A stretch of 32,372 nt of DNA from positions 1-32,372 of the IMG/VR virus record IMGVR_UViG_3300034111_000436; one strand, given 5' to 3'. Positions 986 to 23,865 of this stretch are shown piece after piece. This DNA is from a virus. A program made the translations under genes and the position numbers. The number at the start of each line of letters is the position of its first letter. Within the stretch, counting starts at the first letter, position 1. A model generated the notes under the pieces. That model saw only the letters and a list, made by a program, of their open reading frames with translations. It had not been told where the DNA came from and searched no databases.

Positions 986-1561
986 ATGCCCCTAGTATCG
1001 CGCGCAGTAATCAAGCAGGACTGGCTAAACATCGCAGCAATCGACACAAGCCGCGACGGTCTTATAGATCGTCTGATCGGCTATGTTGACAATGAGATCA
1101 AAGACATCTGCAATCAGCCCATCATTCAGGAAAGCGTAACAGCTTACTACGAAGGCACGCGCGATACGTTGCTTCTAACAGGTTATACCGTGCCGGTGAC
1201 GTTGACTACGCTTAAATATAGAGATAGCTACGGAGATACATTTGCTTCCGTCACCGGCACTACTAATCTTGTGGACATACGCGGCGTTAAATATCTATAC
1301 CTTGAAGACGGCTTTATTAACAAGCAGTACGAAGCAGTCATGAGCGTAGGATATACCACCATCCCTAGCGTGATCGAGATCTGCGCTGCGGAGATGGTAA
1401 CCGAGCTGTATATGGAGACGCCATTCGCACCGCAGGCAAACCGATTCGGCGTAACAGCTATCACGGAAAGCGAAGCTGGTATGAGCATTTCAAAGACGTT
1501 GCAGGCAATGCGTACGCGCGTTAAGCCACGGCTTGCACCATATACGCGCGTGACGATATGA
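986..1561 (+). CDS. Head-tail connector protein, gp6-like
   Basis: 191 residues. The N-terminus has the pattern of the gp6-like/Ad1 connector family: W at 14, then NIAAIDTSRDGLIDRLIGYVDNEI, where helices assemble into a ring under the portal. A central strand-rich part (residues about 50-115) is followed by a helix, IEICAAEMVTELY, and a C-terminal part ending MRTRVKPRLAPY. Length is longer than HK97 gp6 but typical of this family in environmental phages. It is the first of three connector/neck genes in the usual order (connector, gp10-like, tail terminator) and overlaps the next gene by ATGA. Confidence 0.75.
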   Translation: MPLVSRAVIKQDWLNIAAIDTSRDGLIDRLIGYVDNEIKDICNQPIIQESVTAYYEGTRDTLLLTGYTVPVTLTTLKYRDSYGDTFASVTGTTNLVDIRGVKYLYLEDGFINKQYEAVMSVGYTTIPSVIEICAAEMVTELYMETPFAPQANRFGVTAITESEAGMSISKTLQAMRTRVKPRLAPYTRVTI

Positions 1562-2061
1562 GCGATCTCTCACAAAGATTGGCACGGCTGGAGCGTGGGA
1601 TATTGGCAGCGGTTAAAGATGTAGCGCAGAGCATCCCTTACGAGCTGCAAATCTTTACAGAGGATTATCTCAATCCCAACGAAGCAGGGCAGAAGACGGC
1701 AAAAGATGGGCAGCGATATTATCCTAACAAGAACACAAGTAGCAAGCTGCGTACGCTTTACGGAAATATAGCGCGATCACTTGAGCCGGACGGCAAAGGT
1801 AACTTTAGCAAGGTAGAGTTTCGTAACGGCGAGTTCAAGATTGAGTATGGTTACGACCCAAATACTCCTGTTCAGTCTGGCAAGAACAAACTCACATTGA
1901 TGTACGCTAGGTACAACGAACTAGGCACATCACGAGCAAAGGCAAGGCCGTTCTTAAAGCCGGGCTTTGCTGCGTATATGCGTGATGCTTCTGGATACAA
2001 AGCCCTTATCAAAGAGCTTGAAACTACGATCGTAGATGAGTTTATGCAGGAGTTCGGATAA
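1558..2061 (+). CDS. HK97 gp10-like neck / tail completion protein
   Basis: 167 residues. The diagnostic part is near the C-terminus: YARYNELGTSRAKARPFLKPGFAA, matching the Y..y.E.GTs...RPFL.PA pattern of the HK97 gp10-like family (head closure/neck). The N-terminus is helical (LSQRLARLERGILAAVKDVA). Position between the connector and the tail terminator agrees. Start ATG overlaps the previous stop and the stop overlaps the next start (TAATG). Confidence 0.8.
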   Translation: MSDLSQRLARLERGILAAVKDVAQSIPYELQIFTEDYLNPNEAGQKTAKDGQRYYPNKNTSSKLRTLYGNIARSLEPDGKGNFSKVEFRNGEFKIEYGYDPNTPVQSGKNKLTLMYARYNELGTSRAKARPFLKPGFAAYMRDASGYKALIKELETTIVDEFMQEFG

Positions 2062-2525
2062 TGGCGACCAATTCGATGCAGTACATTGTAGATACAATCA
2101 TTGATGCTCTTAACAGCGACGGCAATCTTACGCCGCGCCGTATATGGAGACCAGACGCGTATGAGTCAAAGACTACTATCTGCTATCCATACATTAGCCA
2201 GATGCAGTACGACACCGACTCCGAGACGGGCTTGAGCTTGGGGCTTGGTCGTGCATTGGTCGAGATCATGTGCAACGCCATGATAGAAGCAGACCCTAGC
2301 GAGTTAGGCATAGCCAATGAGCGGGCGGGCGATATTGCAAGCCGTATCAAATACGCGCTAGAGACGTATGACCTCGACGCAATAGGCAGCAATAACGATG
2401 GAAGATTTTACACGGCTATCACGTCAATGCATGTAGATGGCAACGTAGGCGAATTCAACACGGGCAGCAATAAAATCCAGATGGGCGTTGCTGCTACTGT
2501 CACTTTTGTTATACGACCAGTCTAG
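2061..2525 (+). CDS. Probable tail terminator protein
   Basis: 154 residues. Members of the tail terminator group (gpU-like/DUF3168-like) are poorly conserved in sequence; the call rests on position (after a gp10-like protein, before the tail tube), length, and layout: an N-terminal helix (MQYIVDTIIDALNSDG), a middle part with YPYISQMQYDTDS, a helix (DIASRIKYALETY), and a C-terminal strand pair (TAITSMHVDG, GVAATVTFVIRPV). It would cap the tail tube and contact the head. Function is inferred. Confidence 0.6.
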   Translation: MATNSMQYIVDTIIDALNSDGNLTPRRIWRPDAYESKTTICYPYISQMQYDTDSETGLSLGLGRALVEIMCNAMIEADPSELGIANERAGDIASRIKYALETYDLDAIGSNNDGRFYTAITSMHVDGNVGEFNTGSNKIQMGVAATVTFVIRPV

Positions 2526-2530
2526 GACAC

Positions 2531-3280
2531 ATGGACACACAGGACACACAATTAGATAGCTTCCCCGTCAGCTTTTGCGTTATCGCATCGCATGATGACA
2601 TGCACAAGAGTATGCAGGGCATGCTCCGTTCACTACCAAAGAATGCGGAGGTTTGCATCCTGCTAAATAAGCAGGGGCGCGAACACCACGTTAGCGAAGC
2701 GGTAGAGCATACTGACGAAAATCACACGATCCGCTCGCGCGAGTGGACGTACGAAAAGGGAAAATTCAGCTTTGCACAAGCTCGCAATCTATGCGGTCAA
2801 ATGGCTACGAAGGAATGGATATTTTGGATGGACTGCGACGAATACCTATGCGAGCAACAGCACGAAGGCATAGCAGAGGCAACACAAAGGCACGGCGGCG
2901 GCGTAGGTGGTTTTATGGCGGGGCAAGCATCCCTATCATGCTATAAGAAGCTGATCGGCGAAGCAAACGAAAACGAATACTTTAACATCGGACAACTGCG
3001 GATGTACCGTAACACTCCAGAGTTTTACTGGGAAGGTTACGCACACGAGCAGATTGCACACACTATCCGCGGCGCTGGTTACAGCATCGTAGATACAACT
3101 ATCACAATCGCACACAATGGTTACAGCGGCGAAAGTGAAGTGCTCAAGAAGAAGCTCATACGCAACACCACTCTGATCGGCAGATGGTTAGCAGAGAACA
3201 ACGAAGAGCACGGACTGCATACATTCTATCGCGATACATACGTGCGCGATTTAACAGCACTAATTAAAATGGAGAAATGA
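2531..3280 (+). CDS. GT2-family glycosyltransferase
   Basis: 249 residues with a GT-A fold pattern. VSFCVIASHDDM (13-24) is the first Rossmann strand. FSFAQARNLCGQMATKEWIFWMDCDE (79-104) is the typical ARN...W.l.lDaDE stretch, with the metal-binding D-x-D at D101/D103 and E104. GYAHEQI (169-175) holds the conserved HE of this subgroup. No signal peptide or membrane anchor, so it should act in the cytoplasm. It sits between the tail terminator and the major tail protein, with ATG six nt after the previous stop. Phage glycosyltransferases next to structural genes have been linked to glycosylation of virion proteins; the nearby Ser/Thr-rich tail tube is a reasonable substrate, but this is inference. 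Confidence 0.85.
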   Translation: MDTQDTQLDSFPVSFCVIASHDDMHKSMQGMLRSLPKNAEVCILLNKQGREHHVSEAVEHTDENHTIRSREWTYEKGKFSFAQARNLCGQMATKEWIFWMDCDEYLCEQQHEGIAEATQRHGGGVGGFMAGQASLSCYKKLIGEANENEYFNIGQLRMYRNTPEFYWEGYAHEQIAHTIRGAGYSIVDTTITIAHNGYSGESEVLKKKLIRNTTLIGRWLAENNEEHGLHTFYRDTYVRDLTALIKMEK

Positions 3281-3281
3281 A

Positions 3282-3887
3282 ATGGCACTATCTGGTTTCG
3301 TGATCAATGGTGGTCGTAAGGCAGAGTTCTTTACGATTACCGTTGGTACAACACAGACAACCTTTGCATCGACTACTCCTGTCTACACCTGCGTATCGCA
3401 GATTACGTCAGACGGGGCAAATGATGACAACGGTATTCGCACATGGACGTTAGACCAAGTACAAGCAGACAAGCTGTACTGGGACTTCGTCCAGACATAC
3501 GCACCGGCCTCTACAACATCGGCTAGCACAGAAGAGCTGACTATGGAAAACGGCGAAATTATCAGCGGTGCATCCGCTGGTAGCACAGAACTTGCTATGC
3601 TTGTACGTGGAGCAACAATCAAAGACGGGCCAAGCAATGGAAAGCGTCTTGCATGGGCTGGACTTGTCAAGGTTTCAAAGTCTTCTGGCTCTGTAAACTT
3701 TGCCGGTACAGCTTACGTTAAGCCAACGCTAACGGCTATTGCAACTAGCATTACTACAAATCTAGTAATCCCTTCCGGTGCTTTGGCTGATTATGTCGGT
3801 TCAACAGCGGTAACACCAGTTACTGTTACAATCGCAGCATCTACATATCCTTACGGTAAGATGCTTGTCGATCTCGACATTGTATAA
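3282..3887 (+). CDS. Major tail (tube) protein
   Basis: 201 residues, beta-rich, with strong Ser/Thr content (for example PASTTSASTEEL at about 75-86). Identified mainly by position: after the tail terminator, before the chaperones and tape measure, and directly followed by an intrinsic terminator, as suits a highly expressed gene. The start at ATG 3282 has GGAG about 8 nt upstream. The tube would be built of hexameric rings of this protein. The central GEIISGASAGSTELAMLVRG and the final YPYGKMLVDLDIV look like tail-tube strands, but no family motif is decisive. Confidence 0.72.
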   Translation: MALSGFVINGGRKAEFFTITVGTTQTTFASTTPVYTCVSQITSDGANDDNGIRTWTLDQVQADKLYWDFVQTYAPASTTSASTEELTMENGEIISGASAGSTELAMLVRGATIKDGPSNGKRLAWAGLVKVSKSSGSVNFAGTAYVKPTLTAIATSITTNLVIPSGALADYVGSTAVTPVTVTIAASTYPYGKMLVDLDIV

Positions 3888-3973: not shown

Positions 3974-4585
3974 ATGAAACTTAACGGCATAGAAATAGAC
4001 CATCTACCGGTCACGCTCCGCAATCAACAGATTTGCAAAGACTGGTATCAGCGCATAAGCAATCACATACAGCAACGAAGCGTTGAGTATATGCTCCGCA
4101 CGATTGCACGATTGCGGCACGGTAGCGAAGAGTTAGCCGAGCTAATCGACGAAGTGGGCATGGTCAACAACGTAACGCTTAAGGCGCGAATTGTGGCCCT
4201 AATAGAGGCACATAAGGCGCAGCACGACTATGAGAACGAACAGCGCAAAGCAGCAAAGCAAGCCGAGCTGGAATACGAGCCAATGACAGCGGAAGCAGCA
4301 AAGGCCATAGCAGAGCAGGAGTTGAAAGATTCGCTAGTCGTACTGCTGAAAGATAGCCCGGAGATAGGGCGTCAGATGTACTTTAACTTGGACGCTTTCC
4401 CGCAAACGATGGAGTCTATGCTGCTAGGCATTGACTGCATACGCGCTACGGTCGATTATAGCAAGCTATCAGAGCAGGAATCGGAAGCTATCAAGAGCGC
4501 AAACGATAGCGAATTCTGGCAGGACGTGACGGCCTCGGAGGTGGCTCAATACGTCGATCGATTTCGCAGCTCACACAAGCAATGA
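3974..4585 (+). CDS. Tail assembly chaperone-like protein, G-type, copy 1
   Basis: 203 residues, mainly helical, with a charged stretch at about 95-110 (YENEQRKAAKQAELEYE). Position between tail tube and tape measure is that of the G/GT tail assembly chaperones. It is a paralogue of the gene at 4939: both start with a similar helix (KDWYQRISNHI versus QEWQGKISAYI) and share a C-terminal block, TM...MLLGIDCIRAT...SKLSEQ...FW..VT (about residues 140-195). Copy 1 carries an extra ~50 residues in the middle. The T-like frame at 4587 is open back to 4530 inside this gene, in the +1 frame, so a frameshift fusion is possible. The leader AAGGACACACAATGAA is identical to that of copy 2. Confidence 0.65.
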   Translation: MKLNGIEIDHLPVTLRNQQICKDWYQRISNHIQQRSVEYMLRTIARLRHGSEELAELIDEVGMVNNVTLKARIVALIEAHKAQHDYENEQRKAAKQAELEYEPMTAEAAKAIAEQELKDSLVVLLKDSPEIGRQMYFNLDAFPQTMESMLLGIDCIRATVDYSKLSEQESEAIKSANDSEFWQDVTASEVAQYVDRFRSSHKQ

Positions 4586-4586
4586 G

Positions 4587-4949
4587 TTGTACGAAGTTTG
4601 GCGTGTCACTATGTGGAAAATTCACGAAGTGAAGCTGTTAGACAAGTACGGATTCTCACAAGAGCATCCTAACTTTACAATGGACATAGACGATAACTAC
4701 ACCGACACGTTACCCGCTACCGCATCATCTATGGCAATGGCTCTGCAATACGCTCCCGAATGGGGATTGAGTTACTACGAAGTAATGGATATGGCGTATG
4801 CGGAATTCTACAAGCTGGTAAACATCCAAAAAGCAATTAACTACAAGAAGCCGTGGTGGACTGGAGACATGGGCGAACAGGCATACATGTACGAGAAAGC
4901 CAGCGGCAAGCGTCTCAACAAACCTCGAAGGACACACAATGAATTTTGA
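4587..4949 (+). CDS. T-like tail chaperone extension, start uncertain
   Basis: Up to 120 residues from TTG 4587, or 112 from ATG 4611; neither has a visible Shine-Dalgarno. The frame is open upstream to 4530, overlapping the end of the preceding gene, and lies +1 relative to it. The body (ALQYAPEWGLSYYEVMDMAYAEFYKLVNI) resembles the short helical T domains that are made as G-T fusions by ribosomal frameshifting. A run TTT-C at 4562-4565 could allow a +1 slip (TTT to TTC), but there is no slow codon next to it, so this site is weak. Re-initiation after the TGA at 4583 is the alternative. It ends inside the next gene, overlapping it by 11 nt. Confidence 0.55.
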   Translation: MYEVWRVTMWKIHEVKLLDKYGFSQEHPNFTMDIDDNYTDTLPATASSMAMALQYAPEWGLSYYEVMDMAYAEFYKLVNIQKAINYKKPWWTGDMGEQAYMYEKASGKRLNKPRRTHNEF

Positions 4950-5376
4950 ACCTATCCCGCTATCAGTAGCGAACGCGAAGCTCTTGCAAGAATGGCAAGG
5001 CAAGATCAGCGCATACATTGAAGAACACGGCAAAGACCGCATTATGGCGGGCGTGTCGAAGATGTACGCAGAAGATGCAGAGTTTGCGGCACTTGTGGAC
5101 AAAGCAATCAGCAATGGCGGTACGTTTACAGAGCTAGACCTGACCGAATGGGCGAAGAGCAATATGATAAAAGCAGCCGCATTGCATCGGCAAATGCAGG
5201 AGTTACCGCACACAATGAGCGCGCTTATGCTTGGTATTGATTGCATCAAAGCGACGGCAGACAAGAGCAGGTTATCGGAACAGGACGCAGCACAGTTTGA
5301 CGATGAAGGATTCTGGCATCACGTAACAATTACCGATGTGCAGAAGTATTGCAATACCCTACTTGAAATGAAGTAA
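4939..5376 (+). CDS. Tail assembly chaperone-like protein, G-type, copy 2
   Basis: 145 residues, paralogous to the gene at 3974 (shared helix near the N-terminus, and TM..LMLGIDCIKATADKSRLSEQ...FW..VT near the C-terminus). It is shorter because it lacks the charged middle part. It sits directly before the tape measure gene, whose ATG overlaps its stop (TAATG); this is the usual place of a tail chaperone that coats the tape measure before tube polymerisation. Its start is preceded by AAGGACACACA, the same leader as copy 1. Confidence 0.65.
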   Translation: MNFEPIPLSVANAKLLQEWQGKISAYIEEHGKDRIMAGVSKMYAEDAEFAALVDKAISNGGTFTELDLTEWAKSNMIKAAALHRQMQELPHTMSALMLGIDCIKATADKSRLSEQDAAQFDDEGFWHHVTITDVQKYCNTLLEMK

Positions 5377-8300
5377 TGGCAGAAAAAGTTACCGTCAAAA
5401 TAGACATAGATGCCAGCGAACTAAAGAAGCAGCTCGGTACTGTATTAACAGAAGCTAAAAAGCTGGACAACATCGATCCGACTATTAAGCCGAAAGTTGA
5501 TGACAGCGACATTAAAGCCGCGAAAAGCGAGCTGCAAGATTTAGGTGATAAGCAGACTATAAAGCTAGACGGTAGCAAAGCAGAAGGCGTTATTGCCAAC
5601 ATTAAAAAAGAACTGTCCAGCGCATTTGAAGCGGCAAAAGGTGGTGACGCTGGGGGCGCAATAGAAGGATTGAGCAACGGCCTTGCCGCAGCTTTCCCAT
5701 TAGCAGGCGCATTGTCTAGCGGGATGGAGATTTTAAGCTCTACCGTTGGAGCAGTGGCGGGCGCATTTGGTGAAGCATTTGCAGCGGGCGCGGAGTTTGA
5801 CAAGACGCTCAAGCAGCTATCGATTAGCACGGGGCTAGCAGGCGAAGATTTAGGCAAGTTAGAGACGGCAGCGGACAATGCTTTTTTGAAGGGTGTGGGG
5901 GAGAGCGCGGCGGAAGCTGCGAAGATCGTGGGTTCGCTACGTCAGACGCTCGGAGATGCAATACCACTTGATAGTTTAGATGAGGCGGCAGCGCGATCAA
6001 ACCAAGTAGCGCAGGCGTTAGGAACAGAGACGCCGGAGTTAGTGGGCAAGCTATCGCCGCTCATTAAGCAGTACGGCTTGAGCTTTAACGATGCGCTAAA
6101 CTTGGTAGCATCGGGAGCACAAAAAGGTGTTACCGATATCGGCGGCTATTTGGATGCTATCCAAGAGTTTACGCCGAACCTCAAAGAAGCTGGATTTAGC
6201 GCAGAAGAGTTTACAGGGCTGCTAGGCAAAGCGGGCGAAGTAGGTCTCAAAGACTTTGCCAAAGTTGGCGATGGTATTAAAGAGCTGCAAAACCGTATTA
6301 AGTCGGGTGATCTTCTAACGCAATTGCAGGGCATTGGTGGTGAGACTAGCAAGCAGCTTGAGAACCTAGCACGGCAAGCGCAGAAGGGCACGCTATCAGG
6401 TAAGGAAGTGCTTACGCAATCTATCGCAGAGATTGACAAGGCATTTAAGGACGGCAAAATATCGCAGTCCCTACGGGGTCAATTGCTCACTACCTTCGGC
6501 GGCTCTATCGCGGAAGACATCGGCAGCGAAGCGTATAGTAAGATATTCAGCGCGCCAATTGATACAGCGGCCGTTAAGAAGGCAGCACAAGAAGCGGGCA
6601 AGGTAATCGACCAAACGATACCGCCGCCTGATTTTGGGCGCATCTTTGAGCTTGCAAAGAAAGAAGTTGGGCAGGCACTCAACGAAGTATACCAAAAAGT
6701 AATTGCGCCTGTCCTTACTCCTTTGATAGATGGATTTGGGAAATTAAAAGATGTGTTTGTAAGCGCCTTTTCAGGATTAGGCCCCGGCGTTGACATACTA
6801 AAATTATATGGCGAATATCTTGGATTTTTAGCAAAGTTTGTTGTCGATCGTGTTGTTTTAGCTTTTAAGGTTTTGCTAACTGTTTGGCGTGTTTTATATG
6901 CTCCCGTACAGATACTTATTAGTGCTATTGTTAAACTTGTCAAATGGTTTGGAGATTTAACAGGTGCTACCGAGTTTCTTTCAAAAGCATGGAACTATCT
7001 CAAGTCACTTGGTGAAACTGTTTTTACAGTTATTACCAACTTGGGCGATGCAATCGTAGGGCTTGTCAACGCCGTCAGTTCTTTTGATTTAAGCAACATC
7101 GAAAATGCCTTATCTGCATTTGGCACGTTGACACAAGCAAAGAAGAAAGATGCAGACGCTACGAAGGAACAGGCAAAGGCGCAAGAGGATGTTAACAAAG
7201 CAAACAACGGCGGGCTGACTCCAGAAGAGGCGGCAAAGCTGGCAGAAGAACAAGCGGCAGCAGCAGAGAAAAAGAAAGAACAGGAAAAGGCATACGCCGA
7301 AGCGTTAAAAGCAGCACGCGCCGAATTAAAAGCAATAACGGCGGAAGAACAGAAGCGGCAGCAAATACGCGATGCGCAGTCTATCGAGGATGAAAATAAG
7401 CGCGCAATTAAGATCATTGAAATCGAGCGTGACTTTCAGAAGAAGATACTGGATGAACAGCTTGCAGCTATCAAAGGCAAGGGCAAGCTAGAGACTACGC
7501 AGCGCGAAATACTTAATATACAGCTCAAGAAATTAGAGCAGGAAAGCGCTGACGCTATTGCACAAATAAGGGCAAAGCAGCGCGCCGATGAATTGGCAAA
7601 GGCACAAGAGCAGGCAAAGAAAGTAGAAGAGCTTAACGCCAAAGTTGCGGATCAGTTACTAGCACGATTGCAGGCACGCTTTGCGGGCGGTGACAACTCG
7701 CTTGCTGCGGCTGTTCTAAACGCACAAAGATCAGCTATTGAGCGCGGACTGACGGCAACGGTAGATGCTATCATTGCATCTACTCCAGAGTATGCGGCTG
7801 CTATTGCAAAGATTAACAAAGAGATCGAGCAGGGCTTGTTAAATCCTGCCGATTATGCAGAGCGTACAAATAAAGTACGCGCAGAGATACTTGCACGATT
7901 GCAATCGCTACCATCCGATACTAAAGATGTGTACGCATTACAGATTCGCGGCGCATACCAGCAAAGCGCGGATGAGATTGCGAAGGGTACAGCGGACATC
8001 GTAGCGCAGATCAGGCAACAACAAGTAAAGCAGTCGGGCGAGATATTTGCAGATTCATTGCGTGGCATTGGTGAAGCTCTGCGCTCGGTAGATTTTGCGA
8101 CTATCTACGGCGAAGCTGCGGACAAAGCAGCGGCCTTGAACGAAGAGCAAGAGAAGTTAATCGAGAACTTGCAGGATGGTACAGCGACTTATCAAGATTC
8201 GGTAGATCAGCTTGCTAACTTGCAGGCACAACAGGAACAGACGGCAAGTGCGACGGCTACGGCTATCTCGCAGGCATTCCAAGCTATTGCAGATCAACAG

Positions 8301-9164
8301 GCAAAGGCAGCGCAGGACGGTATCAATACGGTAAACGCTGCACTCGAACGTAGAAAAGAGATAGCCAAGCAAGAGATCGACCTTGAAAAACTAAAGGCAG
8401 CAGAGGTTAAAGCTCTGCAAGATCAGGGTATCAAAGACAAGGAAGTTTACGAGGCAGCACTCAAGGCGATAGAGGAAAAGTATACGCAGGATCGCGCTAA
8501 TCTTAAGAAGGAAGATGAGAAGCTAGCGCAGGAATCAGCAGAGGTACAGGACGCTGCACTTAACCAGATAGCCGTATCAGCGGGTGCTGCTTTTGCATCG
8601 CTTGTAGCGGGCGGTGAAAGCGCAGGCGAGGCACTCAAGAAAGTAGTCGGATCGACTGTTAGCGCATTGCTTGACTTGTATACGCCATCTATTGTGGCCT
8701 TGTTTAGCTCGGTTATCCCTCCGCCATTCGGACAAATCGCCGGGCTTGCAGCGGTGCAAGCGTTAAAGGCATTATTGCAGTCCGCGTTGTCTGGCTTTGA
8801 AGAAGGCGGTTACACGGGCAACGGCGGCACAAAGCAAGTAGCGGGCGTAGTCCACGGGCAAGAGTTCGTAATGACTGCCGATACAACACGCAAGAACAGG
8901 GCGCTGCTTGAGCACTTGCATAGCGGCAAATCGCTTGAGTCATTCCCTGCTTTGCAGAAGATGCTCGCGGACAATCAGATTAGCACGATACCAGTAACGG
9001 AGCTACAACTTATGCGCTCCGAGCTTTCGGCTATTCGGCAGCGTCTGGACTCAATGCCGAATGGTATACAGGGCAACATGGGAGTAGATGTGCAAGTAGG
9101 CATGGATACGTACCTTTACGAGCGTGACCGCTCACGAATGATAGCAAGAAAGTTGAGAGGATAA
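5376..9164 (+). CDS. Tape measure protein
   Basis: 1262 residues, the longest gene here. N-terminal helical repeats (1-80), a hydrophobic stretch (about 96-140), a tape-measure core (about 140-420), a second strongly hydrophobic region (about 455-540, YLGFLAKFVVDRVVLAFKVLL), long Glu/Lys/Ala/Gln-rich coiled coil (about 590-760 and 960-1070), and a typical C-terminus GFEEGGYTGNGG...VHGQEFVM (about 1140-1170). It fixes tail length and is ejected into the cell envelope. Using about 1.5 angstrom per residue, the tail would be near 190 nm; this is an estimate. The stretch 6720-7130 is richer in T, also at third positions, than its flanks. Confidence 0.92.
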   Translation: MAEKVTVKIDIDASELKKQLGTVLTEAKKLDNIDPTIKPKVDDSDIKAAKSELQDLGDKQTIKLDGSKAEGVIANIKKELSSAFEAAKGGDAGGAIEGLSNGLAAAFPLAGALSSGMEILSSTVGAVAGAFGEAFAAGAEFDKTLKQLSISTGLAGEDLGKLETAADNAFLKGVGESAAEAAKIVGSLRQTLGDAIPLDSLDEAAARSNQVAQALGTETPELVGKLSPLIKQYGLSFNDALNLVASGAQKGVTDIGGYLDAIQEFTPNLKEAGFSAEEFTGLLGKAGEVGLKDFAKVGDGIKELQNRIKSGDLLTQLQGIGGETSKQLENLARQAQKGTLSGKEVLTQSIAEIDKAFKDGKISQSLRGQLLTTFGGSIAEDIGSEAYSKIFSAPIDTAAVKKAAQEAGKVIDQTIPPPDFGRIFELAKKEVGQALNEVYQKVIAPVLTPLIDGFGKLKDVFVSAFSGLGPGVDILKLYGEYLGFLAKFVVDRVVLAFKVLLTVWRVLYAPVQILISAIVKLVKWFGDLTGATEFLSKAWNYLKSLGETVFTVITNLGDAIVGLVNAVSSFDLSNIENALSAFGTLTQAKKKDADATKEQAKAQEDVNKANNGGLTPEEAAKLAEEQAAAAEKKKEQEKAYAEALKAARAELKAITAEEQKRQQIRDAQSIEDENKRAIKIIEIERDFQKKILDEQLAAIKGKGKLETTQREILNIQLKKLEQESADAIAQIRAKQRADELAKAQEQAKKVEELNAKVADQLLARLQARFAGGDNSLAAAVLNAQRSAIERGLTATVDAIIASTPEYAAAIAKINKEIEQGLLNPADYAERTNKVRAEILARLQSLPSDTKDVYALQIRGAYQQSADEIAKGTADIVAQIRQQQVKQSGEIFADSLRGIGEALRSVDFATIYGEAADKAAALNEEQEKLIENLQDGTATYQDSVDQLANLQAQQEQTASATATAISQAFQAIADQQAKAAQDGINTVNAALERRKEIAKQEIDLEKLKAAEVKALQDQGIKDKEVYEAALKAIEEKYTQDRANLKKEDEKLAQESAEVQDAALNQIAVSAGAAFASLVAGGESAGEALKKVVGSTVSALLDLYTPSIVALFSSVIPPPFGQIAGLAAVQALKALLQSALSGFEEGGYTGNGGTKQVAGVVHGQEFVMTADTTRKNRALLEHLHSGKSLESFPALQKMLADNQISTIPVTELQLMRSELSAIRQRLDSMPNGIQGNMGVDVQVGMDTYLYERDRSRMIARKLRG

Positions 9165-9165
9165 C

Positions 9166-9654
9166 ATGCCAGCAAAGAGTAACTGGACAATGACGCTGTA
9201 CGGCAGCAATACAGATACAGCTACGACAACAAGCGACGCGACGTATGGCGGGGCAATGATGCTTATATCAGCGTTGACTACCGCGACAAACAAAAGCGTT
9301 TTCATCCTTGCGCCGCAATTCGATTATGTGTTCAATACAGGCACGCTAGAAGATGTGAGTGGAACGGTCATAGGATTCACGACGCGCCGTATACAGTTCC
9401 AAATTGAAACCTATCCGTTTAGTTACGATGCAACGTCGGTAACTTTAGAACAGGATATGGAGGACATGATCACGCTGCTAAACATCATCCGAGATTTTAA
9501 GTTCTTGTACCTTCGCGTGGATGGTGGATCGAGGGCTTATCCTGCGGCAACGTATGTATATCCTGTGACTTTGACGTCTAATAACACGGCAATCAATAAG
9601 CAATTCGGCAATCGTACTTTAACGCTCACGTTTGAGCATAGGAAGCGCAGCTAA
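9166..9654 (+). CDS. Distal tail protein candidate
   Basis: 162 residues, mostly beta strands (FTTRRIQFQIETYPFSYD, FLYLRVDG, VYPVTLTSN, FGNRTLTLTFEHRKRS). It follows the tape measure, the usual place of a distal tail (Dit-like) protein that joins tube to tip, but it is shorter than typical Dit proteins and no motif confirms it. ATG at 9166 has AGAGGATAAC upstream. The stop overlaps the next start (TAATG). Confidence 0.55.
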   Translation: MPAKSNWTMTLYGSNTDTATTTSDATYGGAMMLISALTTATNKSVFILAPQFDYVFNTGTLEDVSGTVIGFTTRRIQFQIETYPFSYDATSVTLEQDMEDMITLLNIIRDFKFLYLRVDGGSRAYPAATYVYPVTLTSNNTAINKQFGNRTLTLTFEHRKRS

Positions 9655-18534: not shown

Positions 18535-18735
18535 ATGTACCAAGAACAAACAGACCCAGACTTCGTTATCCACCTGATAAGCAGGTTCGATGACGATCAG
18601 CTTGTAGAATGGCATGAACGTGCCGGTATCTACGAATACGAAGCAAACATGAGCAGAGATGCAGCGGAATACAAAGCCGCGCTAGATATACTTTCACAAA
18701 TAGCGCAGAAGATGCGCAAGAAGGGCACACGATGA
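18535..18735 (+). CDS. Hypothetical acidic protein
   Basis: 66 residues, helical, acidic in the first half (DPDFVIHLISRFDDDQLVEWHERAGIYEYEANM) and basic at the end (AQKMRKKGTR). The ATG is preceded by AGGG about 6 nt upstream; a stronger AAGGGG lies further away at about 18509. It overlaps the next gene by 4 nt. No family recognised. Confidence 0.55.
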   Translation: MYQEQTDPDFVIHLISRFDDDQLVEWHERAGIYEYEANMSRDAAEYKAALDILSQIAQKMRKKGTR

Positions 18736-19079
18736 GTAGCGACGCAATCAACATCACGGGCGAGCTGATCCACATTGGGCAGACGCAGCAGGTAAAAGAC
18801 ACATTCCAGAAGCGATCTTTCGTAGTCAAGACGCAATCGGAATACCCGCAGGAACTGGAGTGCCAGTTTACGCAAGACAAGTGCAAGGAGCTAGACCGCT
18901 TTAAGGTGGGTGACACCGTAACAGCCCGAGTAAACTTGCGCGGACGCGGTTACAACAAGCGCGAAGGCGGTATGGGGTGGTTTACATCGCTCGATTGCTG
19001 GAAGATCGACAAGCTAGGCGAAGGCGCACCGGCAAGCAAGGCAACTGTTATCGCTGAACCTACTGATCTTCCCTTTTGA
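18732..19079 (+). CDS. DUF3127 family protein, SSB-like
   Basis: 115 residues. INITGELIHIGQTQQVKDTFQKRSFVVKT (7-35) and YPQELECQFTQDKC...F.VGDTVTARVNLRGRGYN (38-80) and WFTSLDCWKI match the DUF3127 family, an OB-fold group found mostly in Bacteroidota and their phages. The C-terminus ends TDLPF, resembling the acidic-hydrophobic tip by which SSB recruits partner proteins. With the annealing protein, nuclease and helicase around it, a single-stranded DNA-binding role is likely. The biochemical function is inferred. Confidence 0.82.
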   Translation: MSSDAINITGELIHIGQTQQVKDTFQKRSFVVKTQSEYPQELECQFTQDKCKELDRFKVGDTVTARVNLRGRGYNKREGGMGWFTSLDCWKIDKLGEGAPASKATVIAEPTDLPF

Positions 19080-19386: not shown

Positions 19387-20655
19387 ATGGACTCACAGGG
19401 GTATCTTGCTTTCATACAAAGCAAAAAGAAGACGATAGACGATGCAGGATTTGACGTAAACGATCTCCCGTCTTTCTTGTTTGCCTATCAAAAAACAATT
19501 GTATCAAAAGCACTTAAGCGCGGACGCTTTGCGATCTTTGCAGAATGCGGCCTAGGCAAAACACCTATGCAGCTAGTATGGGCAGATCAAATAGCAAAGC
19601 ACACAGGAAAGCCGGTACTAATACTTGCACCGCTTGCAGTAGCAGCACAGACCGTGCGCGAAGGTGCAAAGTTTGGCATAGATGTATATCATTCGCGAGA
19701 TGGTAGCTACGAGCGGATCACAATCACAAACTATGAGCACATCGATAAGTACCACGCGGGCAAGTTTGCTGGCATCGTACTTGATGAGAGCAGCATATTA
19801 AAGAATTACGCCGGCAAACTACGTAATGAGATTACTAGCTTTGCAAAATCGATACCATACCGGCTATCAGCTACTGCAACACCAGCCCCGAATGACTTTG
19901 TAGAGTTTGGAACGCAAGCAGAGTTCTTAAGCATTTGCACGCATACGGAAATGCTTGCTAACTACTTCGTTCACGACGGCGGCGATACGTCCAAATGGCG
20001 GCTAAAAAAGCATGCTGTTAAAGACTTCAAGCGATGGCTAAACGAATGGAGCATCAACATCAACAATCCGAGCGATCTTGGTGATAGCATTGAGGGATTC
20101 CAGCTCCCGCAGCTCAACGAAGTGCAAGTGCAAATCGACACGCAGCGACCAGATGAAACTCTATTTGAGCAAGTTGCTATCTCATTATCAGAGCAGCGCC
20201 ATCAAAAGCGTAAATACGATGAAGACATAGCGAACAAAGTGGCAGAAATAGTAAACGGTAACGATAATCAATGGCTTGTGTGGGTTGAGAACAACTACGA
20301 AGCTGATAGCATACGCAAGTTGATACCAGAAGCCGTTGAGATACGTGGATCAGATAAGCCAGAGCATAAAGAAACTGCAATGATGGACTTTGCAGCTGAT
20401 AAGATACGAGTGCTTATTACCAAGCCATCTATTGCGGGCTTCGGTATGAACTGGCAACAATGCAGCAACATGGTTTTTTCATCGTTGTCGCACTCATACG
20501 AACAACGCTACCAAGCTATTCGCAGATGCTACCGATTCGGGCAGCGCAATCAAGTCAACGTATACACGATCAGATACCACGGCGATGACGCCATTTCAGT
20601 AAACTTTAACCGCAAACAAGTGAATGCGGATCACATTAAATCAGTAGAGGTTTGA
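19387..20655 (+). CDS. SNF2-type DEAD/H helicase
   Basis: 422 residues, superfamily 2. Q-like motif AYQK (33-36), Walker A ECGLGKT (53-59), motif Ia ILAPLAVAAQ (79-88), Walker B VLDESS (131-136), motif III SATATPAP (161-168), motif V GFGMNWQ (about 350), motif VI RRCYRFGQR (379-387). The RxxRxGQ form and DESS box place it with SNF2-like phage helicases, which lack the extra domains of chromatin remodellers. A clear AGGAGG (19371-19376) lies 10 nt before the ATG. It likely works with the adjacent VRR-NUC nuclease in replication or recombination. Confidence 0.88.
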   Translation: MDSQGYLAFIQSKKKTIDDAGFDVNDLPSFLFAYQKTIVSKALKRGRFAIFAECGLGKTPMQLVWADQIAKHTGKPVLILAPLAVAAQTVREGAKFGIDVYHSRDGSYERITITNYEHIDKYHAGKFAGIVLDESSILKNYAGKLRNEITSFAKSIPYRLSATATPAPNDFVEFGTQAEFLSICTHTEMLANYFVHDGGDTSKWRLKKHAVKDFKRWLNEWSININNPSDLGDSIEGFQLPQLNEVQVQIDTQRPDETLFEQVAISLSEQRHQKRKYDEDIANKVAEIVNGNDNQWLVWVENNYEADSIRKLIPEAVEIRGSDKPEHKETAMMDFAADKIRVLITKPSIAGFGMNWQQCSNMVFSSLSHSYEQRYQAIRRCYRFGQRNQVNVYTIRYHGDDAISVNFNRKQVNADHIKSVEV

Positions 20656-20656
20656 C

Positions 20657-21535
20657 ATGCAGCACGAACATGTGCAAGGGGACAATTTCAACATCTATAA
20701 CGGCGATTGTGTGCTTGGTTTGAGCAACTACGTCCTAGATGAGACGGTGGGCTATTCAATCTTCAGCCCTCCATTTGCGAGCTTGTATACTTATTCTGAC
20801 AGTCCATTTGACATGGGCAACACGCAAAACGATGATGAGTTTTACGAGCAGTTTAGATACCTAGTAAAAGAGCTCTACCGAGTCATGATACCGGGCCGTG
20901 ATGTTAGCTTTCATTGTATGCTGCTACCAAGCACGATCCAGCATAACGGAGTTATCGGGCTGCGTGACTTTCGCGGCGATCTAATCCGCATCTTCCAAGA
21001 TGAAGGTTTTGTCTATCATTCGGAAGTGGTTATCTGGAAAGATCCAGTTGTAGCTATGCAGCGCACAAAGGCGATCGGTCTGCTTTATAAGCAGCTTAAG
21101 AAAGATAGTTGCATGTCTAGGCAGGGCATACCAGACTACCTGATTACGATGCGTAAGCCCGGCGCTAATCCGCAGCCGGTAACAAAGACGCCAGAGTCTT
21201 TCCCGGTAGGCAAGTGGCAGCGCTACGCTAGTCCTGTTTGGATGGACATAAACCCATCGGACACGTTGCAGTATACATCGGCCCGTGAGCACGACGACGA
21301 AAAGCACATCTGCCCATTGCAGTTGCAAGTAATTGAGCGCGGCATAGAGCTATGGAGCAATCCCGGCGATCTTGTGCTATCTCCTTTCATGGGAATTGGA
21401 TCAGAAGGCCACGTTGCGTTAAAAATGAATCGTCGCTTTGTTGGGTTTGAGCTTAAAAAAAGCTACTTCAAACAGGCAAGCAGCAACCTTCGCAATGTAT
21501 CACAATTGAACAGCTTATTTGGGGAGGATATATAA
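20657..21535 (+). CDS. DNA methyltransferase, beta class
   Basis: 292 residues. Catalytic motif IV SPPF (37-40) comes before the SAM-binding motif I LSPFMGIGSEG (241-251), the order of the beta class. SPPF suggests N4-cytosine or N6-adenine methylation; the base and target site cannot be read here. Ser replaces the usual Asp in D-P-F-x-G-x-G, a variant I believe is common in phage members. No restriction enzyme is next to it, so it is probably an orphan that protects phage DNA. It follows the helicase with a one-base gap. The stop overlaps the next ATG. Confidence 0.87.
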   Translation: MQHEHVQGDNFNIYNGDCVLGLSNYVLDETVGYSIFSPPFASLYTYSDSPFDMGNTQNDDEFYEQFRYLVKELYRVMIPGRDVSFHCMLLPSTIQHNGVIGLRDFRGDLIRIFQDEGFVYHSEVVIWKDPVVAMQRTKAIGLLYKQLKKDSCMSRQGIPDYLITMRKPGANPQPVTKTPESFPVGKWQRYASPVWMDINPSDTLQYTSAREHDDEKHICPLQLQVIERGIELWSNPGDLVLSPFMGIGSEGHVALKMNRRFVGFELKKSYFKQASSNLRNVSQLNSLFGEDI

Positions 21536-21633
21536 TGGACGCAATCGACAGGGGGATAGCGATCAGCTTGGTGCTGCTAGTGATGTATATCGCACTCGAG
21601 ATATACGTACATAATAGGAGGGTCGATGACTGA
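21535..21633 (+). CDS. 32-aa membrane micropeptide
   Basis: ATG 21535 overlaps the previous TAA and follows GGGGAGGA (Shine-Dalgarno, 21521-21528). The 32 residues are a short polar start (MDAIDRG), one hydrophobic helix (IAISLVLLVMYIALEIYV) and a basic-acidic tail (HNRRVDD). Its own 3' end contains AGGAGG, the binding site for the next gene, which it overlaps by 8 nt. The tight fit, the good binding site and the clean TM segment support expression. Confidence 0.6.
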   Translation: MDAIDRGIAISLVLLVMYIALEIYVHNRRVDD

Positions 21634-22213
21634 ATACCCGAACTGGTTTGACTCGGTAGCACGAGCAAATTTTACAGAGTTTCTGCTGCCAGAAGCAGGC
21701 CGCGATAACTACCAAGCATTGCAGATCGGCGCATTTGTAGGTCACGCAAGCGATTGGCTGCTACGGTATATGCTAACAGGTAACAAAGTGATGCTGTACG
21801 ACGTGGACACATGGCAGGGCAGCGACGAAGCAGAGCACAAGCTGTTTGACTGGGTAGATGTTTTTGACACGTACCTATCGCGCATCGGGCTGCGTGCATA
21901 CATGAAGTGCCGATACTTCCGTATGACGTCGGATAGGTTCTTCGATAGCTATGCCAACATGCTAGATCGCAATCAGTTCGACTTTATCTACATCGATGGC
22001 GACCATACCGCAGATCAGGTATGGAAAGACGGCGCAAAGGGCTGGAAGTATCTTAAGCAAGGCGGCATCCTTGCCTTTGATGACTATCAATGGGATGGGG
22101 GCAAGGGGACGGCACATAATCCAAAGCAGGGGATTGACACGTTCCTAGAAGTACACGACGGCGAATACGAGCTGCTAGCAAAGAACTGGCAAGTATGGCT
22201 GCGGAAGTTGTGA
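21626..22213 (+). CDS. Class I SAM-dependent methyltransferase
   Basis: 195 residues. ALQIGAFVGHASDWLL (31-46) is the SAM-binding motif I, MLYDVDTWQGSDEAEH (56-71) motif II with the following loop, DFIYIDGDHTADQVWKDGAKGW (119-140) the Methyltransf_24-type signature, and GGILAFDDYQW (146-156) the next strand. This family mostly methylates small molecules, sugars or proteins, not DNA. Substrate unknown. A strong AGGAGG lies just before the ATG. It could work with the glycosyltransferase at 2531 on a glycan, but they are far apart and this is only a suggestion. Confidence 0.82.
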   Translation: MTEYPNWFDSVARANFTEFLLPEAGRDNYQALQIGAFVGHASDWLLRYMLTGNKVMLYDVDTWQGSDEAEHKLFDWVDVFDTYLSRIGLRAYMKCRYFRMTSDRFFDSYANMLDRNQFDFIYIDGDHTADQVWKDGAKGWKYLKQGGILAFDDYQWDGGKGTAHNPKQGIDTFLEVHDGEYELLAKNWQVWLRKL

Positions 22214-23295: not shown

Positions 23296-23865
23296 ATGAG
23301 GCGGTATAGAAAGCTAAATGAGGTGCTCGCAATGTCCGACACCATCCTCAAATACTTTGATGTGCACCGGTCACGGTTCGTATCATGGGCTGCTAACCAG
23401 CCCGATCTGTTCCCAGAAGTAAGCGCGCGCGCTATGCAGGATTATTTGCTGATCGCAATCAATAGGCACATGATCCCTTCACACATAACCGACACCAGAA
23501 GAGCACTCAAAATCATCAAACAAAAACTAGCAATGAGACCAAACACGCAAAATCCAGCTATCCTAAACCTTATCGACCAATTCTGCAAGCTCTACAACTG
23601 CACATGGGAGCAGCTTGTAGCGCAATCCCGATTCCATTGGGTTGTAGAATGCCGGTATCTGCTCATGTACTTCCTATTTACGAAGTACCGACTATCTAAC
23701 TCCTTGATAGCGCGGCTATTTAACAAGCACCACTCGTCAGTTATCCACGCGCTGCGTAACATGCGCAGCCAAATCGAAACAGATGCTAACTTCCGTGAAT
23801 ACGTGGAACGTATGGAAACGCTGCTAGATATTAACTTTACGGTGCAAGTGGAAGAGATAGAGTGA
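23296..23865 (+). CDS. DnaA domain IV-like DNA-binding protein
   Basis: 189 residues. The last ~95 (about 90-182) align in layout with DnaA domain IV: ILNLIDQFCKLYNCTWEQLVAQSR, then CRYLLMYFLFTKYRLSNSLIARLF, then HHSSVIHALRNMRSQI (145-160), which corresponds to the DnaA signature (D/H)HSTVIHA.RKI. No AAA+ ATPase domain is present. The N-terminal ~85 residues are helical and unlike other DnaA domains. ATG 23296 is used; CGGAGGG lies about 8-14 nt upstream. It directly follows the initiator/origin gene, so it may help initiation, recruit host factors, or compete with host DnaA. Confidence 0.75.
   Translation: MRRYRKLNEVLAMSDTILKYFDVHRSRFVSWAANQPDLFPEVSARAMQDYLLIAINRHMIPSHITDTRRALKIIKQKLAMRPNTQNPAILNLIDQFCKLYNCTWEQLVAQSRFHWVVECRYLLMYFLFTKYRLSNSLIARLFNKHHSSVIHALRNMRSQIETDANFREYVERMETLLDINFTVQVEEIE

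Follow-up and report, generated by a model that had tools for sequence, protein, structure and literature searches.

The 32,372-nucleotide viral stretch analysed here (the window; IMG/VR record IMGVR_UViG_3300034111_000436) carries a glycosyltransferase-like gene, hereafter GT, within a run of tail genes (Table 1). The gene is an ATG-started open reading frame of 249 codons, located exactly where the original prediction had placed a GT2-type enzyme with a D-x-D site, and family searches bear that description out. The protein matches Pfam PF00535 at E 1.7e-4 (22.0 bits, slightly below the curated cut-off of 23.3) with two more GT2 models ranking next, and its sole NCBIfam match at E ≤1 is SunS (TIGR04195; E 4.3e-9, 35.7 bits against a cut-off of 350). 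In the PHROG collection, weak matches to phrog_37334 and phrog_13126 (‘beta-1,4-glycosyltransferase’) both lie near 1e-4. By this family resemblance we take the gene to be real and its product to be a GT2-like glycosyltransferase. No membrane span was found by hydropathy, the 19-residue maximum being 0.71, and the enzyme is predicted to be soluble. The D101-C-D103 motif follows a Rossmann-like half and is invariant in the eight aligned members, as are the HE and HNGY motifs, and the sequence DCDE is present in 22 of 22 contigs (window counted). This invariance argues against an enzymatically inactive protein whose fold is retained for an assembly or scaffolding role, a highly unlikely reading that is in keeping with the fixed position of the gene in the tail run. 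GT is very probably an active catalyst.

Table 1 Features of the window that bear on the GT gene and its candidate partners.
Feature	Coordinates	Strand	Details
Tail completion / neck-1-like protein	1558..2061	+	phrog_5 E 8.6e-6
Putative tail terminator	2061..2525	+	gene order only
GT2-like glycosyltransferase	2531..3280	+	249 aa; DxD at residues 101-103
Putative major tail (tube) protein, candidate acceptor	3282..3887	+	201 aa; gene order only
Tape measure protein	5376..9164	+	phrog_1272 E 3e-22
Methyltransf_24 protein, O-methyltransferase-like	21626..22213	+	195 aa; PF13578 E 1e-15

GT had been described as lying between a tail terminator and a major tail protein. The position holds, while the two gene names come from gene order, without a family match, and are plausible on that basis. 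A neck-1-like gene and the tape measure gene frame the stretch, so a tail terminator and a tail tube protein would be expected within it; neither protein has a credible match in Pfam or PHROGs. For the 3282–3887 product, a PDB profile search returned nothing credible, tblastn against 50,697 phage records gave no match, and the AF2 model has a pLDDT of 41 and is unusable. Because none of these five approaches named the protein, we infer ‘tail tube’ from its place and refer to it as the tube candidate. Its gene starts one base past the GT stop codon. The tube candidate is rich in Ser/Thr, as the original prediction had it (24.4% against 13.2% across the 36 ORFs counted), though six of the other 35 window ORFs likewise exceed 21%. 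Further along, before the tape measure gene, the 3974–4585 and 4939–5376 products match each other at 22–43% identity, as if duplicated, and occupy the position expected for tail assembly chaperones.

The arrangement of these genes is conserved across related contigs. IMG/VR scans with GT returned 19 contigs at 94–99% identity and scans with the tube-candidate gene returned 22 contigs, which gives 23 sources for comparison, the window plus 22 contigs, with L036 beginning inside the tube gene. GT and the tube candidate are adjacent and in the same order in all 22 contigs where both are readable, the window included. The gap between them is one base in 21 of these, and in L028 they overlap by one base. 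Upstream, the preceding gene and GT are separated by 5 bases in 19 contigs and by 8 in L028 and L034; the gap is undefined in L018, whose aligned GT start lacks an ATG. The dN/dS of GT is 0.074 against L020, 0.188 against L028, 0.158 against L034 and 0.045 against L012. Within the near group GT has diverged less than the tube candidate (94% against 83% identity for L020; 97% against 84% for L012), and in two distant members the two proteins are about equal (76% against 76%; 77% against 74%). GT is a core gene of this uncultured phage group and is under purifying selection. Wider scans with profiles of GT and the tube candidate returned no contigs beyond those already found. With regard to the host, the window encodes at 18732–19079 a DUF3127 protein (E 4.3e-24), of a family found mostly in Bacteroidota, which is a hint of a Bacteroidota host. 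Separately, the 23296–23865 product has a DnaA C-terminal helix-turn-helix (Bac_DnaA_C, E 1.6e-9) and is possibly an origin-binding protein.

By sequence, the solved relatives nearest to GT are SunS, ThuS and GmaR. A single-sequence PDB search matched, below 1e-3, only two SunS sequences (6.6e-7) and GmaR (1.7e-4); with the GT family profile the matches are SunS at 2.8e-9, ThuS (7msk) at 1.1e-5 and GmaR at 1e-4, and no LPS enzyme appears among the matches of either search. The relationship to SunS is distant, at about 25% identity. GmaR of Listeria glycosylates flagellin and is also an antirepressor. SunS, ThuS and EnfC-type glycocin glycosyltransferases use peptides as acceptors, according to the available part of PMC8620827. 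Since SunS, ThuS and GmaR act on peptides or proteins, these matches favour, short of proof, a protein acceptor for GT.

The predicted GT model is of middling quality (pLDDT 60), and at that quality GT-A enzymes stand among its best rows in the structure comparison, all with Z below 8. The best rows are B4GALNT1 (Z 7.2), GtrB (7.1) and ArnC; ThuS reaches 6.5 and SunS 5.8 with the same model, so protein glycosyltransferases are not singled out, and a Foldseek search with the model gave no match at E 0.001 or better. The lipid-phosphate enzymes GtrB and ArnC in these rows would suit an enzyme that modifies a host surface glycan from the cytoplasmic face (LPS core, capsule or a lipid-linked precursor) and thereby blocks superinfection or the loss of progeny onto debris, and so would the weak match to phrog_13126, which falls in the host-takeover category. 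The DxD, HE and H-x-GY motifs also occur in LPS enzymes of the wider GT clan, which points the same way. Modification of a host glycan is nevertheless improbable, given a protein that has no membrane span, a gene that is fixed in the tail run and a set of PDB sequence matches that includes no LPS enzyme.

Five phage records match GT, four of them SPbeta-type phages, whose yolJ we take to be sunS. The top phage-record match, OR846634.1 (L127, Enterococcus phage Efs 1-1-1), was not accepted as a phage relative: the ORFs adjoining the match are C39-type ABC transporter-like and thioredoxin-like, and the region resembles a gene cluster for glycocin production, perhaps from plasmid DNA. Among plasmids, 106 records match GT at 1e-4, of which 96 are from Enterococcus, and all are below 60% identity. 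A genome scan with GT found a single distant relative; it lies in a Planctomycetota MAG, in surroundings that were not recognised as phage.

Where an acceptor site might lie was approached through the tube candidate itself. Its Ser/Thr positions are invariant in 26 of 49 cases, against 94 of 152 other residues (p 0.32), which is no enrichment, and conserved Ser/Thr were accordingly rejected as acceptor sites of the 3282–3887 product. A C-terminal Ser/Thr cluster was also rejected, since Ser plus Thr make up 19.5% of the last 41 residues against 25.6% of the first 160. Cys37 is invariant in 22 of 22 sequences; this is uninformative, because, when 17 Cys positions from nine proteins were checked, 14 proved to be kept in every available sequence. 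Weak tube-candidate matches in L193, L194 and L196 (E 0.005–0.01), in the vicinity of distant GT2 genes, were set aside, being absent at E 0.001 over larger stretches.

A second enzyme that may act on the same product is the Methyltransf_24 protein encoded about 18 kb from GT. It covers the full PF13578 profile at 58.9 bits (cut-off 26.3) and also exceeds the cut-off of PF01596 (Methyltransf_3), an O-methyltransferase family. D59, D124, D152 and D153 are invariant in eight of eight members, and the PDB matches, weak as they are (best E 0.059), are all methyltransferases, mostly of O-type. The PHROG label ‘DNA methyltransferase’ therefore appears to fit the protein less well than O-methyltransferase-like. 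Among 20 contigs searched, the methyltransferase gene occurs in 14 and GT in 13. Both are found in seven of the seven other contigs of at least 25 kb, and each of the remaining 13, all shorter than 25 kb, has one or the other, as is expected of fragments given the distance between the two genes.

Around the terminase, a relative of the methyltransferase was seen in 28 of 50 loci, on stretches of unequal length. The N6/N4 DNA methylase is present in four of these 28 and the SNF2 gene in three, and so the methyltransferase gene stays while its neighbours come and go. In most of the 22 loci without it, only a short stretch lies upstream of the terminase. L073, L074 and L078 begin at or inside the SNF2/DNA-methylase cassette, downstream of the site that the methyltransferase gene occupies in L075 and L076. 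The gene is absent from L039, which has 3.4 kb upstream of the terminase. In the window the SNF2-type helicase and the N6/N4 DNA methylase (20657) lie at 19387–21535 and behave as a cassette that few relatives have. A terminase gene stands at each end of two contigs, 3300045999_003053 (L042/L049) and 3300044615_000233 (L065/L068), suggesting either terminal redundancy or a read that ran on beyond the closure of a circle. The presence of DNA-modifying genes such as the 20657 methylase would be consistent with GT glycosylating DNA bases. This is a far-fetched reading, as no base-hydroxylating or hypermodification gene was found among the 20 ORF proteins scanned with Pfam and GT sits among tail genes, not replication genes.

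More distant relatives of the methyltransferase place its family in the company of GT2 genes. A profile scan gave 258 relatives, of which 80 were kept; 54 of the loci (L139–L192) are distant, at 42–50% identity, and the analysis used the 35 that lie on contigs longer than 10 kb, leaving out the 19 on shorter ones. A PF00535 gene is present at E 0.001 in 14 of these 35 contigs, above the Pfam cut-off in 11 of the 14. Among distant contigs of at least 23 kb, which are not fully independent (G039, G041 and G047 look alike), 10 of 13 carry such a gene, compared with 3 of 34 arbitrary IMG/VR contigs (Fisher p 1.2e-5) taken from a list of 80 and unmatched in phage type, or with 0 of 23 once arbitrary contigs longer than 57 kb are dropped (Fisher p 1.1e-6). 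The Pfam cut-off is exceeded in 9 of the 13 and by all three of the arbitrary-contig matches. A search of the 34 arbitrary contigs for a 21626-type methyltransferase, run without a positive control, found none. The association is one of the methyltransferase family with GT2 function, as would be expected of a sugar O-methyltransferase.

Physical linkage is seen in part of the set. In 4 of the 14 contigs no more than 1.5 kb separates the methyltransferase from the GT2 gene; L208 and L209 show an 11-base overlap of the two, and in L210 about 155 bases lie between them. The linked GT2 genes belong to phrog_13126 (L208, L214) and phrog_34859 (L210, L215, L219), and they align with the window GT at 12–16% identity. 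A profile of the window GT matched 0 of the 35 distant contigs in a search without a positive control, and the single local match in the set is in L203 (E 0.004). By sequence, the GT2 enzymes beside the distant methyltransferases are other types and not orthologues of the window GT. In annotated phage records the best methyltransferase relative is in MW202753 (32%), where no glycosyltransferase name occurs among 53 features, most of them ‘hypothetical’, covering 29,470 of 35,640 bases, which counts against the association. In L214 a collagen-like tail-fibre gene (7133–9292) is followed directly by the phrog_13126 GT2 gene, which makes this contig a candidate case of glycosylated phage collagen. 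With L208, whose GT2 gene is near tail-fibre-like genes, and with the six further window proteins that are equally Ser/Thr-rich, L214 also lends some weight to the reading that the window GT glycosylates a virion protein other than its neighbour, be it capsid, decoration protein or tail fibre. The strict adjacency of GT and the tube candidate counts against this reading, which we regard as unlikely.

Taken with the solved relatives that act on proteins or peptides, the fixed place in the tail run and the core status of the gene make glycosylation of a virion protein the best reading. A soluble GT2-type enzyme would be made along with the tail proteins from the late tail gene run and would take a single sugar from a nucleotide-sugar of the host and attach it to a freshly synthesised virion protein, either ahead of assembly or in its course. 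Its first candidate acceptor would be the product of the next gene, because a single base separates the two genes, which stand together in every readable relative. O-methylation of that sugar by the 21626 enzyme may follow. The steps differ in strength. That some virion protein is the acceptor we consider likely; that the acceptor is the adjacent protein is a tentative proposal. The original prediction had named the tail tube or the capsid. Its virion-protein component is what we favour here, the tail tube is indicated by adjacency, its Ser/Thr showing no extra conservation, and no pointer to the capsid was found. The accompanying suggestion that the methyltransferase could cap the sugar gains from its co-retention with GT and from the GT2 association of its relatives; O-methylation of the transferred sugar, a step we infer, is possible at a little short of even odds. 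As a whole, the account in which GT glycosylates a virion protein, perhaps its neighbour’s product, with the sugar perhaps then methylated, stands at about an even chance. A more elaborate version is doubtful: a two-gene decoration system of protein glycosyltransferase and sugar O-methyltransferase that would be core here and, with the GT2 type exchanged, present in wider environmental phages, the tail tube being coated with an O-methylated sugar that is possibly S-linked to Cys37 by the SunS-like enzyme.

Glycosylation of phage virions is itself already known, and the window most likely adds another case in an uncultured phage group. In Mycobacterium phages, capsid and tail tube subunits are reported to be glycosylated and antibody binding to be weakened (Freeman et al. 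2023, as relayed in the available portions of PMC12619734, PMC11652166 and PMC12691614), and the glycans are said in the accessible text of PMC12619734 to sit at C-termini. A glycosyltransferase and a methyltransferase of Rhodococcus cluster CB phages are interpreted likewise in the part of PMC13313380 available. The window resembles the mycobacteriophage systems in its phage-encoded GT, which lies near virion genes in all 22 contigs with neck and tape measure genes nearby. It differs in that the C-terminus of the tube candidate is poorer in Ser/Thr, unlike the C-terminal glycosylation described in those sources, and in that the system is known here from genes only. SunS, ThuS and EnfC-type enzymes are the closest sequence matches, yet GT falls far below the SunS cut-off, measures 249 residues against 421 for the model, and no glycocin-type genes for a precursor, a transporter or immunity were noticed next to it. 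GmaR shares the GT2-type domain (profile match E 1e-4), whereas the window GT bears no sign of a regulatory role and lies in the tail gene run. The phage glycosyltransferases of phrog_13126 and phrog_34859 are similar as GT2 genes of phages with the same methyltransferase family, though they are not orthologous. Among the literature matches listed, no title or abstract concerns a glycosyltransferase between tail terminator and tube genes. The present case combines a firmly fixed gene position with an enzyme whose nearest solved relatives by sequence are SunS, ThuS and GmaR.

If the reading is right, virion sugar decoration would be a fixed, selected trait of a phage group remote from the actinobacteriophages in which it is already known. 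Since the decoration would then be kept under selection, its benefit, whether in adsorption, stability or escape from defence, becomes testable. The methyltransferase family retained alongside GT would, in turn, provide a marker by which further phages with possible virion decoration could be found.
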